Shown: in pieces, positions 14,718 to 37,914 of the stretch
How positions within the stretch are numbered: position 1 is the stretch's first letter
How the letters are laid out: the number at the start of each line of letters is the position of its first letter
Assembly: GCF_900626155.1 (NCBI RefSeq)
Contig: NZ_LR130844.1
Coordinates: forward strand, 1-64,000
DNA length: 64,000 nucleotides
DNA from: Anaerococcus vaginimassiliensis
Lineage (GTDB): Bacteria > Bacillota > Clostridia > Tissierellales > Peptoniphilaceae
Direction: 5' to 3'
The notes under the pieces: model-generated
The model's input: only the letters and a program-made list of their open reading frames with translations
Database searches by the model: none
Told to the model about the DNA's origin: nothing
Made by a program: the position numbers and the translations under genes

Positions 14718-14755
14718 AGAATTTTATATTTATGCAAAAATGAGCATAGAAAAAC

Positions 14756-14858
14756 TCTTCTTTCATCCAGACTATACTGTCGGTATCGGAATTTCACCGA
14801 TTCAGCTTGCGCTCGCAGACTTTACTGCCGGTGGAGACTTACACTCCGCCCTGAAGAT
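14756..14858 (-). promoter_or_regulatory. FMN riboswitch (RFN element)
   Basis: The minus strand carries the RFN consensus blocks in order: ATCTTCAGGGCGGAGTG, CCACCGGCAGTAAAGTC, TGCGAGCGC, GGTGAAATTCCGATACCGAC and TGGATGAAAGAAGA. These form the six-helix FMN aptamer. With a promoter upstream and a terminator downstream it controls the rib operon according to FMN. Confidence 0.96.
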
Positions 14859-14882
14859 TAACTTTATTATTAACTTAATATT

Positions 14883-33486: not shown

Positions 33487-33538
33487 AATTTCCTCTTAAT
33501 TCATTATATCATATGATATAATGAAAGAGAGGTTTAAA

Positions 33539-34153
33539 ATGACTAAGATTTACGAAAAGTTTCCAGAAATTACTAACATAAAAGCAAATGTGCTTTCCAA
33601 AAAATTTGTAAATAACAATACTTATCTTATTTTAGATAAGACTATATTTATGCCTAAGAACGATTCATTAAAAGATGATGAGGGTTACATATCAGGTCAC
33701 AAGGTTCTATCCGTTGAAGAGAAAAGAGACAATATAATTCATTTAATCGAAGGAAAGGAAAATAGAAAAGACCTAGTTTTATCTCTTGATAAAAGTATAA
33801 GAAGAGAAAATCTCTATAGTGCAAGTGCCTTTTGCTTGTTTAAGATTTTCTATAAAACTTATTATTCCACAGGCAGGTTTTCCCTTGAAACCAACGATGA
33901 AATAAAGAAAATCACAATAGAAAATCCTAGCCCAGATTTTGATCCCTTTTTGATAGAGTATTTAATTAATTATTCTATAGACAAGGGGCTAAAGATTAAT
34001 TTCGACAAAGGAATAGCAGAGTTAAGCGGCATAGGCAAGGCTGTTAACAATCTAATTTGTTTTGACAATACCTACAAAGTAAAATCTTTTAAAATAACAA
34101 ATTGCCTAAAAGAAGATAATTCTACAATAGTTTTTTTTGAAGCAGGTTTATAA
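33539..34153 (+). CDS. Degenerate alanyl-tRNA-editing (AlaX-like) protein, tentative
   Basis: 204 aa from the ATG at 33539, which has GAGAGG in front; an upstream ATG (33521) lies inside a TATAAT promoter element. The layout resembles AlaX/AlaRS editing proteins: an N-terminal beta domain (TYLILDKTIFMPKND, SGHKVLSVEEKRDNIIHLIEG) and a helical part LDKSIRRENLYSASAFCLFKIFY that stands where AlaX has DWxRRxxxMxxHTAxHL. The zinc motif HxxxH is lost there (SASAF). Editing activity is therefore doubtful. A strong terminator follows. Similarity was judged by eye, so confidence is moderate. Confidence 0.5.
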   Translation: MTKIYEKFPEITNIKANVLSKKFVNNNTYLILDKTIFMPKNDSLKDDEGYISGHKVLSVEEKRDNIIHLIEGKENRKDLVLSLDKSIRRENLYSASAFCLFKIFYKTYYSTGRFSLETNDEIKKITIENPSPDFDPFLIEYLINYSIDKGLKINFDKGIAELSGIGKAVNNLICFDNTYKVKSFKITNCLKEDNSTIVFFEAGL

Positions 34154-34162
34154 GCTAACTAC

Positions 34163-34222
34163 AAGCTATAAGATATTTCTATATTTTTCAATCAATATAG
34201 TGATATCTTATAGCTTTTCTTA
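34163..34222 (+). terminator. Terminator of the AlaX-like gene
   Basis: AAGCTATAAGATAT (34163-34176) pairs with ATATCTTATAGCTT (34203-34216), with an inner CTATAT/ATATAG arm, followed by TTCTT. Confidence 0.85.
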
Positions 34223-34249
34223 TATCTACTTTTACATGATAATATATTA

Positions 34250-34278
34250 TTGCATAAAAATTATATTTATGCTAAAAT
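34250..34278 (+). promoter_or_regulatory. Promoter of the ABC exporter operon
   Basis: TTGCAT (34250-34255), 17-base spacer, TAAAAT (34273-34278). Transcription would start at about 34285 and give a 125-base leader. Confidence 0.7.
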
Positions 34279-34308
34279 GAAGTTATTAAATACAAAGGAG
34301 GTTAAAAA

Positions 34309-34347
34309 ATGAACAATACAAAAAGAATGGATTTTAAGCTACTATAG
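34309..34347 (+). CDS. 12-residue leader peptide upstream of the ABC exporter
   Basis: ATG to TAG encodes MNNTKRMDFKLL, with a perfect AAAGGAGG seven bases upstream (34294-34301). The stop codon touches the first base of a hairpin that controls the next ribosome site. The excellent ribosome site and the position argue for a translated regulatory leader. An exported short peptide is a less likely alternative. Confidence 0.65.
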   Translation: MNNTKRMDFKLL

Positions 34348-34411
34348 AGTAAGAATCACGGGTACTCCTTGATCCTTACTATTAATTACAAGGAGGAAGC
34401 CTTAAGGCTAT
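34348..34411 (+). promoter_or_regulatory. Switchable hairpins that can hide the ABC exporter ribosome site
   Basis: Two exclusive structures are visible. Structure A pairs AGTAAGAATCACGG (34348-34361) with CCTTGATCCTTACT (34367-34380), 12 of 14 bases. Structure B pairs CTCCTTG (34365-34371) with CAAGGAG (34389-34395), covering the Shine-Dalgarno of the exporter gene. A palindrome AGCCTTAAGGCT (34398-34409) lies between that site and the ATG, which is 15 bases away; folding it would bring the two to normal distance. No U-tract follows, so control should be at translation. Confidence 0.65.
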
Positions 34412-36157
34412 ATGAAAAAACTGAAATTTTTATTTAAAGAGATGGCTAAGTACGAACCATCTATGTTTCTTCTAATCGTACTATATTCCATATCAATAGG
34501 ACTTAGACCCTTTATATGGATTGTTTCCCCTGCTTACATATTGAAAAATACTGATAAGCCTTTCTCATATTTTGTAATATTTTTCCTAATATTATTAATA
34601 ATCTCAGCAATATCAAGTTTCTTTGATTCTTTTATAATGAACAATTATAGGATGAAAATGAACAACATCAGATATAATTGTATAAGAATGATAACTAGAT
34701 ATTCTCTTTATTTACCTTTTGACAAGCAGAAAGATAAAATAGAAATAGAAAAAATAAATAATGCCCTCAAGGCATGTCAATCTCCTTTTGATGGCGTTGG
34801 CGGAATAATGATGAGTTTGCCTCCTATTGGAGCATTGATTTTCTCAATAAGTGGATTTGTTTGGATATTTTCTAAGATGGGATATCTATTACTTCTATTA
34901 ATACTGGTTACTACTACTATTTATTTTGTTATAAATTACAAATCTACTCTTGTTTATACTAGATACTGGGAAAAGATGTCTCCGAATTGGAATATCTTCA
35001 CTAAACTAAATTATCAATTAAGAAGTCCTGAGTCCAAGCAAGATATACTCATCTATGATTTTATAAGGCTTTTTAAGTCATATTATATGAAAACTAATAA
35101 AAATAGGATAGATGAGTACAATGATGCAAATAAAAGGGCAATTACTATATATTCCCTTGCAAGACTTGTTAGCTTTATTAGAGATATAGCAATTTTCTAT
35201 TGGCTAATCACTTCTATATTAAAGGGAGTCATAGATATAGGTGACTTCTATATGTTTTTTACAGCAATCTTTGCTTTTATCACTTTCAATGATGAATACA
35301 CTTGGATTATATCAAATATCAAAAATGGCATGGCAAGCTTTGGATATTTCTTCGATATAATGGAGGAAAACATTGATGATGTGGGAGAAAAACTTGAAAA
35401 TCCTCAAAAAACTGAGATAGAATTTAGAAATGTATCTTTCAAATATCCAAACACAGATAAATATGTACTCAAAGATATTAATTTCACTATCCACGACAAG
35501 GAGTCTCTCGCCCTAGTAGGCGAAAATGGTGCTGGAAAATCTACTCTAGTTCTTTTACTTTGTGGTCTATATAAACCAACTAGCGGAGAAATTCTCCTAA
35601 ATGGAGTAAATATTAATAAATACGGTGCAAATTATAGGGATATTGTTTCAGCAATATTTCAAGATTCCCTTCTCCTACCCTTTACAATTAGAGAAAATGT
35701 AAGTCTCGATAATAATTCATCTAATATAGATGATATTTACAAAACAACTGGTCTTGATAAGATAATTGAAAAATACGATAAAAAAGACCAGCAAACCTTG
35801 CTTAGAACTCTGGATGAAGAAGGTGTCGATCTTTCTGGGGGTCAAAAACAAAGAATATTCCTATCCAGAGCCCTTAACAAGAAAACAAGTAAAATTCTAA
35901 TCTTAGATGAGCCAACCGCTCAGCTAGATGCCTTAGCAGAAAGAGAACTATACATGCTCTACGATAAGCTAAGCGAACATATGTCATCCATTTTTATATC
36001 TCACAGACTTGCCTCTACTAAATTTTGTGATAGAGTTATTTTTCTAAAGAATGGAGAAATTATAGGCAATGATAGCCATGATAATCTCATAAAAATTAAC
36101 GAGGAATATAAGGACCTCTACGAAATTCAAGCTAAAAACTACAAGGAGGTCTTATGA
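34412..36157 (+). CDS. ABC exporter half-transporter, first subunit
   Basis: 581 aa. An N-terminal membrane domain with about six helices (about residues 15-330) precedes the ATPase domain: Walker A GENGAGKST (about 370), signature LSGGQ, Walker B ILILDEPTAQLD and H-loop ISHRL. The signature is canonical. It overlaps the second half-transporter by 4 bases (ATGA), so the pair likely works as a heterodimer that exports a drug, lipid or peptide. Expression is probably set by the leader upstream. Confidence 0.92.
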   Translation: MKKLKFLFKEMAKYEPSMFLLIVLYSISIGLRPFIWIVSPAYILKNTDKPFSYFVIFFLILLIISAISSFFDSFIMNNYRMKMNNIRYNCIRMITRYSLYLPFDKQKDKIEIEKINNALKACQSPFDGVGGIMMSLPPIGALIFSISGFVWIFSKMGYLLLLLILVTTTIYFVINYKSTLVYTRYWEKMSPNWNIFTKLNYQLRSPESKQDILIYDFIRLFKSYYMKTNKNRIDEYNDANKRAITIYSLARLVSFIRDIAIFYWLITSILKGVIDIGDFYMFFTAIFAFITFNDEYTWIISNIKNGMASFGYFFDIMEENIDDVGEKLENPQKTEIEFRNVSFKYPNTDKYVLKDINFTIHDKESLALVGENGAGKSTLVLLLCGLYKPTSGEILLNGVNINKYGANYRDIVSAIFQDSLLLPFTIRENVSLDNNSSNIDDIYKTTGLDKIIEKYDKKDQQTLLRTLDEEGVDLSGGQKQRIFLSRALNKKTSKILILDEPTAQLDALAERELYMLYDKLSEHMSSIFISHRLASTKFCDRVIFLKNGEIIGNDSHDNLIKINEEYKDLYEIQAKNYKEVL

Positions 36158-37914
36158 AAAATATAGTTAAACTCTTTAAAAGATTTGAAGAAGATTATAA
36201 TCATTTCAATCTAATAATTGTGATCCTATCTATAATTATGGGTTTATTACCAGTTATTAATATCTACGCGCCAAAACTTATAATAGAAAACCTTGAAGCT
36301 AATACCAATACTAGATATATTGGAAAAATCATAGTTGCGGTTTTACTAGCTAATATAATACTCGTCTTGCTAAGAAAAGTATATGAAGCTTATTTTACCT
36401 TGGTCTTTGAATCTATGACTGATAAATTGACCTTTGAGCTTAGCGAAAAAGCAATGAAGCTTCCTATCGAAGATACTGATAGTAAAGATATTCAAGATAA
36501 ACTTGAAAAAGCACATATTTCTGTTTTTAATATATACGATTTGTGGGAAACTTTAAATATTTCAACAAGTTCCCTTGTTACAGGTATCTTTGCACTAGCA
36601 ATATTAGTTAAGCTTAATATCTTCCTTCCCCTACTAGGTCTTGGGATAATATTTGCTAATAGATATTTTGTAAATCTAATAAAGAATAATGAAATATACT
36701 ATCAAAAAAAATCCGCTGGTGAAAATAGAGTCTACCGTTACTTTGCTAATTTCGCCCAAGATAACAAGTATTCGAAGGATATTAAAATTTATAAGGGTGA
36801 AGAACTAATCCTAGAAAAATCTAAAAAATACATGGATAGATTGATAAACACCAACAAGGACTATTACACTAAAAACGGAATATATGGTGGAATGATGAAT
36901 ATTACTTCATCTATTGGTATAGTTCTTGCTCTTATTTATTTAACCTATAGAATAACTGAGAACACCGTAAGTCTAGCTGACTTTACCCTATATTTCTCCT
37001 CAATTATTCAGTTGATTAACACTGTAAATATAGTGCAGAAAAACTACGCCCAAGTGATATCTGTAAATGAAAATATGAAAAGCTACTTTGATTTCATAAA
37101 TCTACCTGAAAGAGAAATTGAAAATAACAAAAATGTAGATATCAAGCTAGATAAACTTTCTATAAGATTTGATAATGTATCCTTTAAATATCCTAAGAGT
37201 AAAAATTATATCTTGAGAAATTGCTCTTTTGAAATAAAAGATGGAGAAACTGTCGCTCTTGTGGGCAAAAACGGTGCAGGGAAATCAACTATAGTTAAGC
37301 TTTTATGTAAGTTCTATGATCCAACTGAGGGAAATATTTACATCAATGACGTGAATATCAAAGATATAAAAGCACGAGATTACTACAAAATCCTATCTCC
37401 TACCTTCCAAGATTTTAGGTTATTTCCTTTTAAAATTAGTGAAAATATATTAGCTAAAAAAGAAGAAGATATTTCAAGTTATGATTTAGAAAAAGTGAAA
37501 GATTCAACAAAGCTATTAGGTATTGATAAGTGGATTTTATCACAAGAAAATGGCTACTCGACATATCTAACTACTTTGTTCAGCGATACAGGCATTGAAC
37601 CATCAGGAGGAATAGGACAAAAAATTGCCCTCGCACGATCCATGTCTCACGGTGGTAGATTTTTTATAATGGATGAACCTACTAGCGCCTTAGATCCTAG
37701 AAGTGAACAAGAAATATTTGAAAATATGTTGGAGATTTCCAAGGGGCAAACATCACTATTTATATCTCACAGGCTATCATCAACAAAATACGCTGATAGG
37801 ATCATAGTTTGCGATGGCGGTCATATAATAGAAAATGGAAAGCACGCTGATTTAATTCACAAAAACGGCCTATACAAAAAAATGTTTGAAAGCCAAAGAG
37901 AACTTTACTCATAA
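36154..37914 (+). CDS. ABC exporter half-transporter, second subunit
   Basis: 586 aa with the same layout: a membrane domain with about six helices (about 20-320), Walker A GKNGAGKST, Q-loop TFQDFRLFPF, Walker B FFIMDEPTSALD, H-loop ISHRL. The signature reads PSGGI where LSGGQ is usual, so one of the two composite ATP sites is probably weak. This asymmetry is common in heterodimeric exporters such as BmrCD. The membrane part carries many lysines and asparagines. A terminator follows. Confidence 0.92.
   Translation: MKNIVKLFKRFEEDYNHFNLIIVILSIIMGLLPVINIYAPKLIIENLEANTNTRYIGKIIVAVLLANIILVLLRKVYEAYFTLVFESMTDKLTFELSEKAMKLPIEDTDSKDIQDKLEKAHISVFNIYDLWETLNISTSSLVTGIFALAILVKLNIFLPLLGLGIIFANRYFVNLIKNNEIYYQKKSAGENRVYRYFANFAQDNKYSKDIKIYKGEELILEKSKKYMDRLINTNKDYYTKNGIYGGMMNITSSIGIVLALIYLTYRITENTVSLADFTLYFSSIIQLINTVNIVQKNYAQVISVNENMKSYFDFINLPEREIENNKNVDIKLDKLSIRFDNVSFKYPKSKNYILRNCSFEIKDGETVALVGKNGAGKSTIVKLLCKFYDPTEGNIYINDVNIKDIKARDYYKILSPTFQDFRLFPFKISENILAKKEEDISSYDLEKVKDSTKLLGIDKWILSQENGYSTYLTTLFSDTGIEPSGGIGQKIALARSMSHGGRFFIMDEPTSALDPRSEQEIFENMLEISKGQTSLFISHRLSSTKYADRIIVCDGGHIIENGKHADLIHKNGLYKKMFESQRELYS

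Follow-up and report, generated by a model that had tools for sequence, protein, structure and literature searches.

Upstream of a two-gene ABC exporter operon of Anaerococcus vaginimassiliensis lies a short open reading frame (ORF), followed by two mutually complementary segments, one of which belongs to the ribosome site of the first exporter gene. This arrangement raises the question of whether translation of the leader controls that of the exporter and, if so, in which direction and by what means. An earlier note on the window, that is, the whole stretch of 64,000 nucleotides that was analysed, had proposed a sensor of impaired translation, in which completion of the leader closes the ribosome site of the exporter and an early stall or a failure to initiate leaves it open. 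From the analysis described below, the region is probably a cis-acting, translation-sensing RNA switch which is repressed by translation of its leader.

The leader and exporter region of the window

The exporter region looks like a transcription unit of its own. An A+T-rich 14-bp inverted repeat followed by a T-rich run (34163..34216), identified by eye and absent from the output of a G+C-based terminator scan, resembles a terminator and may mark the end of the upstream gene. This repeat and the elements of the leader and exporter described hereafter are all on the plus strand. The best-scoring promoter-like element (34250..34278) is composed of TTGCAT, 17 nt and TAAAAT, with a TG before the second hexamer. 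It matches 8 of the 12 consensus bases, lies under the cut-off of the promoter scan and would place the transcription start of the leader RNA near 34284. The leader possesses a Shine-Dalgarno (SD) sequence, AAAGGAGG (34294..34301), and a putatively translated ORF of 12 codons, MNNTKRMDFKLL (34309..34347), which runs from an ATG at 34309 to a TAG stop codon at 34345-34347. Folding places a hairpin, termed hairpin A (34348..34380), one base after this stop, with pairs between 34348-34353 and 34375-34380 and between 34355-34358 plus 34360-34362 and 34367-34373. Its 3' half contains the anti-SD CTCCTTG (34365..34371), which is complementary to CAAGGAG (34389-34395) within the exporter SD, CAAGGAGG (34389..34396); the pairing of these two is termed helix B. 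The leader ORF with its strong SD and the complementarity between anti-SD and SD are present as the earlier note had claimed, and the arms of hairpin A fold within one base of where it had placed them. A third structure, hairpin C (34398..34409; AGCC TTAA GGCT), located between the exporter SD and the start codon, is new beyond that note.

The exporter operon (34412-37914) codes for a first half-transporter of 581 aa (34412..36157, ATG at 34412) and a second of 586 aa (36154..37914), the start of which overlaps the stop of the first gene (ATGA), and is followed by a terminator-like hairpin seen by eye. Among the best 25 NCBIfam models for each protein (of 185 and of 184, respectively), all score below their curated cut-off and the substrate of the exporter is therefore left unassigned. 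The best 60 matches among solved structures were mostly ABCB-type and MsbA-type exporters and offered no clue to the substrate. At least 5000 plasmid records have distant ABC matches to the exporter, none of which spans 80% of the query, and a search of genome contigs for related loci returned just four distant loci, which were uninformative.

The upstream neighbour of the region (33521-34153) shows a weak match, far under cut-off, to alanyl-tRNA editing models. By eye, a similar gene ends 5' of the exporter in several relatives, where the locus seems to be syntenic.

No Rfam family reaches its gathering threshold at the switch, the only matches in the window being a single tRNA and an FMN riboswitch aptamer (14751-14862, minus strand, 109 bits). 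The G+C-based scan detected no terminator-like site in 33700-34500, with none between the leader and the exporter gene. The free energy of the leader region is ordinary (161 nt, z-score of -0.05), so stability alone is uninformative, and the evidence for a switch consists of conservation and two-state folding.

Conservation of the element within the genus

The exporter is present in 29 of the 31 genomes of the genus (E-value of 1e-120 or lower), with 47-67% identity to that of the window. When upstream regions were compared, after turning all loci to the exporter strand, the leader SD, the leader start, the hairpin and the anti-SD/SD pair were found with 27 of these 29 exporters, and both pairings on which the earlier note relied are thus conserved in relatives. 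The leader stop lies at the hairpin in all but one (L029) of the 27 loci. A best-scoring promoter-like element occurs at the equivalent place, 17-20 nt 5' of the leader AGGAG, in every one of the 27, as judged by a scoring with a mild bias toward a 17-nt spacer. Its position 5' of the leader speaks against a transcription start downstream of 34350, which the earlier note had regarded as incompatible with its proposal.

A covariance model built from the 27 loci, with helix B as its sole structure, was run with stricter filters. It gave exactly one match in each of 28 of the 31 genus genomes and no match among 99 genomes from elsewhere in the family. The 28th copy belongs to genome G015, which is outside the model set; at this locus (L090, G015:C1:770439-770592) the leader switch persists ahead of a shortened, broken exporter. 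Homologues of the exporter in other genera (28-38% identity) were inspected by eye in 15 upstream regions, these representing 13 of 17 genomes listed for other genera and two further homologues, and no such leader was seen. Within this set of genomes, the element is confined to this exporter and to the genus.

A simple pattern of leader SD, ATG and anti-SD has matches in 100 of 249 genomes of the order. Four short-ORF-like matches were checked and rejected, as all four overlap longer ORFs on the opposite strand; the remaining matches were judged from the match list alone.

The canonical element is missing from two exporter loci of the genus. By eye, L005 (G010:C12) has a possible 12-codon ORF, which has no clear SD and ends at a strong hairpin adjoining the exporter SD, and L004 (G017:C61) has kept AAAGGA with no start codon after it. 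These are perhaps remade or decaying forms of the element.

A second recurrent inverted repeat of the form CTCCTTG...CAAGGAG was identified in the genus, occurring in a total of 9 of the 31 genomes (for example L062, G000:C1:1731854-1731905). It masks the SD of an ORF which, by eye, resembles a small sigma-type factor.

Two exclusive pairings and a bridging hairpin

Individual folds indicate that hairpin A is retained across clades by means of rewired arms. In most species GTAAG pairs with a CTTAC located 3' of the anti-SD, in another clade it pairs with a CTTGC that overlaps the anti-SD, with GTCAAA/TTTGAC in addition, and in L027 its partner CTTAC lies 5' of the anti-SD core. In L002 and L003 the inner helix is TAGGA/TCCTA instead of AAGGA/TCCTT, and helix B is lengthened by ATAAA/TTTAT. 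The RNAalifold consensus on a MAFFT alignment recovered helix B alone (6 pairs), hairpin A being missed because its arms are shifted between clades. The GTAAG itself is invariant in the aligned loci, which exceeds the need of pairing alone and could indicate that a ligand, a protein, a small RNA or temperature sets the two RNA forms, the leader being incidental; the Rfam result mentioned above would also suit such an effector. However, the rewiring of the arms between clades is unlike the behaviour of a ligand pocket, and an incidental leader would hardly have kept its SD, start, length and stop position, making this explanation improbable.

For the two-state criterion, the free fold had to contain hairpin A and leave the exporter SD without an upstream partner, while in the blocked fold, with the leader stop and the next 11 nt masked, the exporter SD had to be paired upstream. 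It was passed by 25 of 26 loci (L013 fails) versus 72 of 3900 controls, obtained by dinucleotide shuffling of the segment from leader stop to exporter SD in 13 representative loci; L029, with a leader stop beyond the anti-SD, is excluded from these counts and from those of the ribosome walk below. This criterion was revised after inspection of the data. An earlier form, which called for at least five of the six SD nucleotides to be unpaired in the free fold, was passed by 14 of the 26 loci versus 27 of 2600 shuffles, and it was changed because the SD of the other 12 loci pairs weakly downstream and not with the anti-SD. The predicted folds show hairpin A and helix B to be mutually exclusive, as the earlier note had supposed, with helix B hiding the exporter SD.

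The effect of ribosome position was modelled with a footprint of 15 nt behind and 16 nt ahead of the P site. Using a 15-nt tail, the median probability of the exporter SD being unpaired was 0.02, 0.02, 0.06, and 0.10 when the P site occupied the last four codons of the leader and 0.47-0.74 when it was further upstream, the switching edge lying about four codons before the leader stop. Individual loci can deviate from these medians, the highest values being 0.43 for the last codon and 0.90 for the third and fourth codons from the end. In all 26 loci, moving the ribosome from the leader stop to the leader start raised the probability of an open exporter SD, and the ratio was at least fivefold in 21 of the 26 with 15 nt of exporter coding sequence and in 23 with 60 nt, where the probability at the leader stop did not exceed 0.17. 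Computationally, the direction of control agrees in each of the 26 with that put forward in the earlier note.

For the window's own sequence, the inclusion of 60 nt of coding region gave a mostly closed ribosome-free state (0.08), with 0.07 for a ribosome at the leader start codon and about 0.5 for one at leader codons 5-8; with 15 nt, the values were 0.62-0.93 at codons 3-8. A longer-range fold weakens the open state here. In this species, the modelling thus leaves the claim that the SD is open in the absence of a ribosome weakly supported, unless hairpin A forms first during transcription, and the claim that a ribosome stalled mid-leader opens it holds better.

The exceptional locus L029 (G025:C3) has a leader ORF of 27 codons that continues past the anti-SD, which may reflect a frameshift, a mistake in the assembly or an altered regulatory logic. 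With a ribosome positioned at the stop of this leader, folding predicts an open exporter SD (0.65), as would be expected if leader translation were activating, with leader ribosomes melting the structure or reinitiating at the exporter (translational coupling). The other 26 leaders, however, end before the anti-SD, where a ribosome exposes it to the SD, and in these about 55-79 nt separate the leader stop from the start of the exporter. Coupling is accordingly given little credence.

With the leader as repressor, the proposed mechanism would operate as follows. Ribosomes would load at the strong leader SD and translate the leader of 12-16 codons. Once it had reached the final codons or the stop, a ribosome would cover the 5' arm of hairpin A, and the freed anti-SD would pair with the exporter SD, turning off translation of the two-gene operon. 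If initiation at the leader does not occur, or if the ribosome stalls in the first two thirds of the ORF, hairpin A would trap the anti-SD and the exporter SD would be open. The switch would then report impaired translation, such as that caused by ribosome-targeting inhibitors, and the pump may in turn remove the inhibitor.

Hairpin C adds a further feature to this ribosome site. Among the 27 loci and L090, 22 have a long spacer of 16-23 nt between AAGGAG (AAGGGG in L090) and the ATG, and the other 6 a short one of 4-11 nt; a hairpin is present in all 22 of the long spacers, where it reduces the distance to 2-8 nt, and in none of the 6 short ones. There are 13 distinct hairpin spacers, each of which folds better than at least 97.7% of its mononucleotide shuffles (fractions 0.001-0.0225). 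Their pairs were counted from the base of the stem by script, because MAFFT misaligned the short hairpins with respect to structure, and 51 of 52 cells in the four basal pairs are paired. At each of pairs 2-4 the hairpins use three or four different canonical base pairs (compensatory changes). When the 3' arms were re-dealt among the hairpins, a procedure that ignores the relatedness of loci, none of 5000 trials reached 51 of 52 (mean 37.9). The conserved hairpin C is predicted to bring an over-long SD-AUG spacing to a working distance, and initiation would by this means depend on that exporter SD. Such split ribosome sites are known from phage T4 genes 38 and 25, for which a review describes a hairpin between SD and AUG that shortens 22 or 27 nt to 5 or 11 nt and whose destabilisation lowers initiation (PMC3014915). 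The shortening predicted here is like that of these T4 sites; unlike them, it is found in a bacterial operon and in combination with an anti-SD switch.

Leader peptides and known translation-sensing leaders

The constant features of the leader are its SD, its ATG and its dimensions. It is 12-16 codons long in 26 of the 27 loci, its ATG lies 38-53 nt from the GTAAG of hairpin A, its stop ends between -4 and +8 nt from this GTAAG in 26 of 27, and seven of the 27 leaders have two consecutive stop codons. The peptide itself is hardly conserved, a feature that the earlier note had not covered, and varies widely (MNNTKRMDFKLL, MTKLRKGKEASN, MNNNIKNKEEICNL, MNINLNKKIGVSKN and others), although short stretches, MTKLR and MDFK among them, recur in different loci. 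In 32 related pairs the proportion of changed sites is 0.07 for non-synonymous versus 0.15 for synonymous sites, figures which are only indicative and suggest weak coding selection on the leader.

Despite drift in the remainder of the peptide, Asn is the last or second-last residue in 22 of the 27 leaders, with related loci each counted separately; its codon is AAC or AAT, often inside GTAACT.

A short leader ahead of a possible drug exporter could be a drug-specific attenuator of the erm/cat type, where arrest of the ribosome at a defined codon by the nascent peptide opens the exporter SD. Some leaders do possess basic-X-basic motifs, for example KLR, RNR, and KAR, and motifs of this kind are macrolide stall sites according to PMC12121999. 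Several leaders, including that of the window, are without such a motif, and no conserved arrest peptide was found among the widely differing leader peptides of the 27 loci. The layout of erm has four segments, whereas three strands only are involved here. The element shares with the erm and cat attenuators, as portrayed in the discussion of PMC4191407, a leader ORF, alternative hairpins and SD masking; in those systems the stalled ribosome opens the SD, whereas in the present case folding predicts closure by a ribosome on the first arm. As two features taken here as defining fail in computational tests, namely a conserved arrest peptide and the opening of the SD by a first-arm ribosome, the element is not regarded as a member of erm/cat, and drug-specific arrest is considered unlikely.

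Asn, Lys, and Arg are abundant in the leaders, and the geometry found here would also serve an amino-acid shortage sensor, with ribosomes stalling at starved leader codons. However, no single-residue run is conserved, Asn and Lys codons are favoured by A+T-rich genomes anyway, and the recurrent Asn is located at the end of the leader, where a stall would close the switch. This is a very improbable explanation.

It is possible, at somewhat less than an even chance, that the leader peptide carries no information and that the flow of ribosomes to the stop is itself the repressor, the element being a sequence-independent translation meter. At the same tentative level, any block of initiation or of early elongation would open the pump.

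In the rtpA (anti-TRAP) leader of Bacillus subtilis, Trp codons are decoded and the terminating ribosome itself occludes the SD, whereas here the masking would be carried out by the anti-SD. The predicted logic is alike in that a ribosome finishing the leader shuts the next gene and an earlier stall opens it. Control of anti-TRAP at the level of translation by tRNA-dependent stalling is described in PMC11255114.

In bmrB of B. subtilis, efficient translation of the leader keeps BmrCD off and slowed translation turns it on; the transcription terminator lies inside the leader ORF and induction requires translation of bmrB (PMC4191407). The present element resembles it in having a short leader 5' of a two-gene ABC exporter and, by prediction, the same off/on logic, and differs from that description in having no terminator-like site and in masking the SD after the leader stop. 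With toiL, the uORF of topAI-yjhQ in Escherichia coli, it shares, by prediction, a leader ORF that masks or unmasks a downstream ribosome site, an arrangement suited to several classes of ribosome inhibitor. In toiL, the stalled ribosome itself prevents pairing between leader and SD, and destruction of the leader SD abolishes induction (PMC12121999). On its modelled behaviour, the element is here called a variant of translation attenuation outside the bmrB, toiL, and erm/cat families. The combination of a three-strand switch with a hairpin-bridged split ribosome site was not found in the literature searched, which consisted mostly of papers available without subscription.

Well-studied leader sensors of the erm type read the drug through an arrest peptide. 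In a leader that retains its length, stop and RNA partners but not its peptide sequence, general translation sensing would be separated from nascent-peptide chemistry. The prediction that follows is that the gene is switched on when leader initiation is removed, for instance by loss of the leader SD, which is the opposite of toiL as described in PMC12121999. Hairpin C represents a repeated natural case, in a bacterial operon, of the arrangement described for phage T4. In the genus, the element marks an exporter operon whose cargo may include translation inhibitors.
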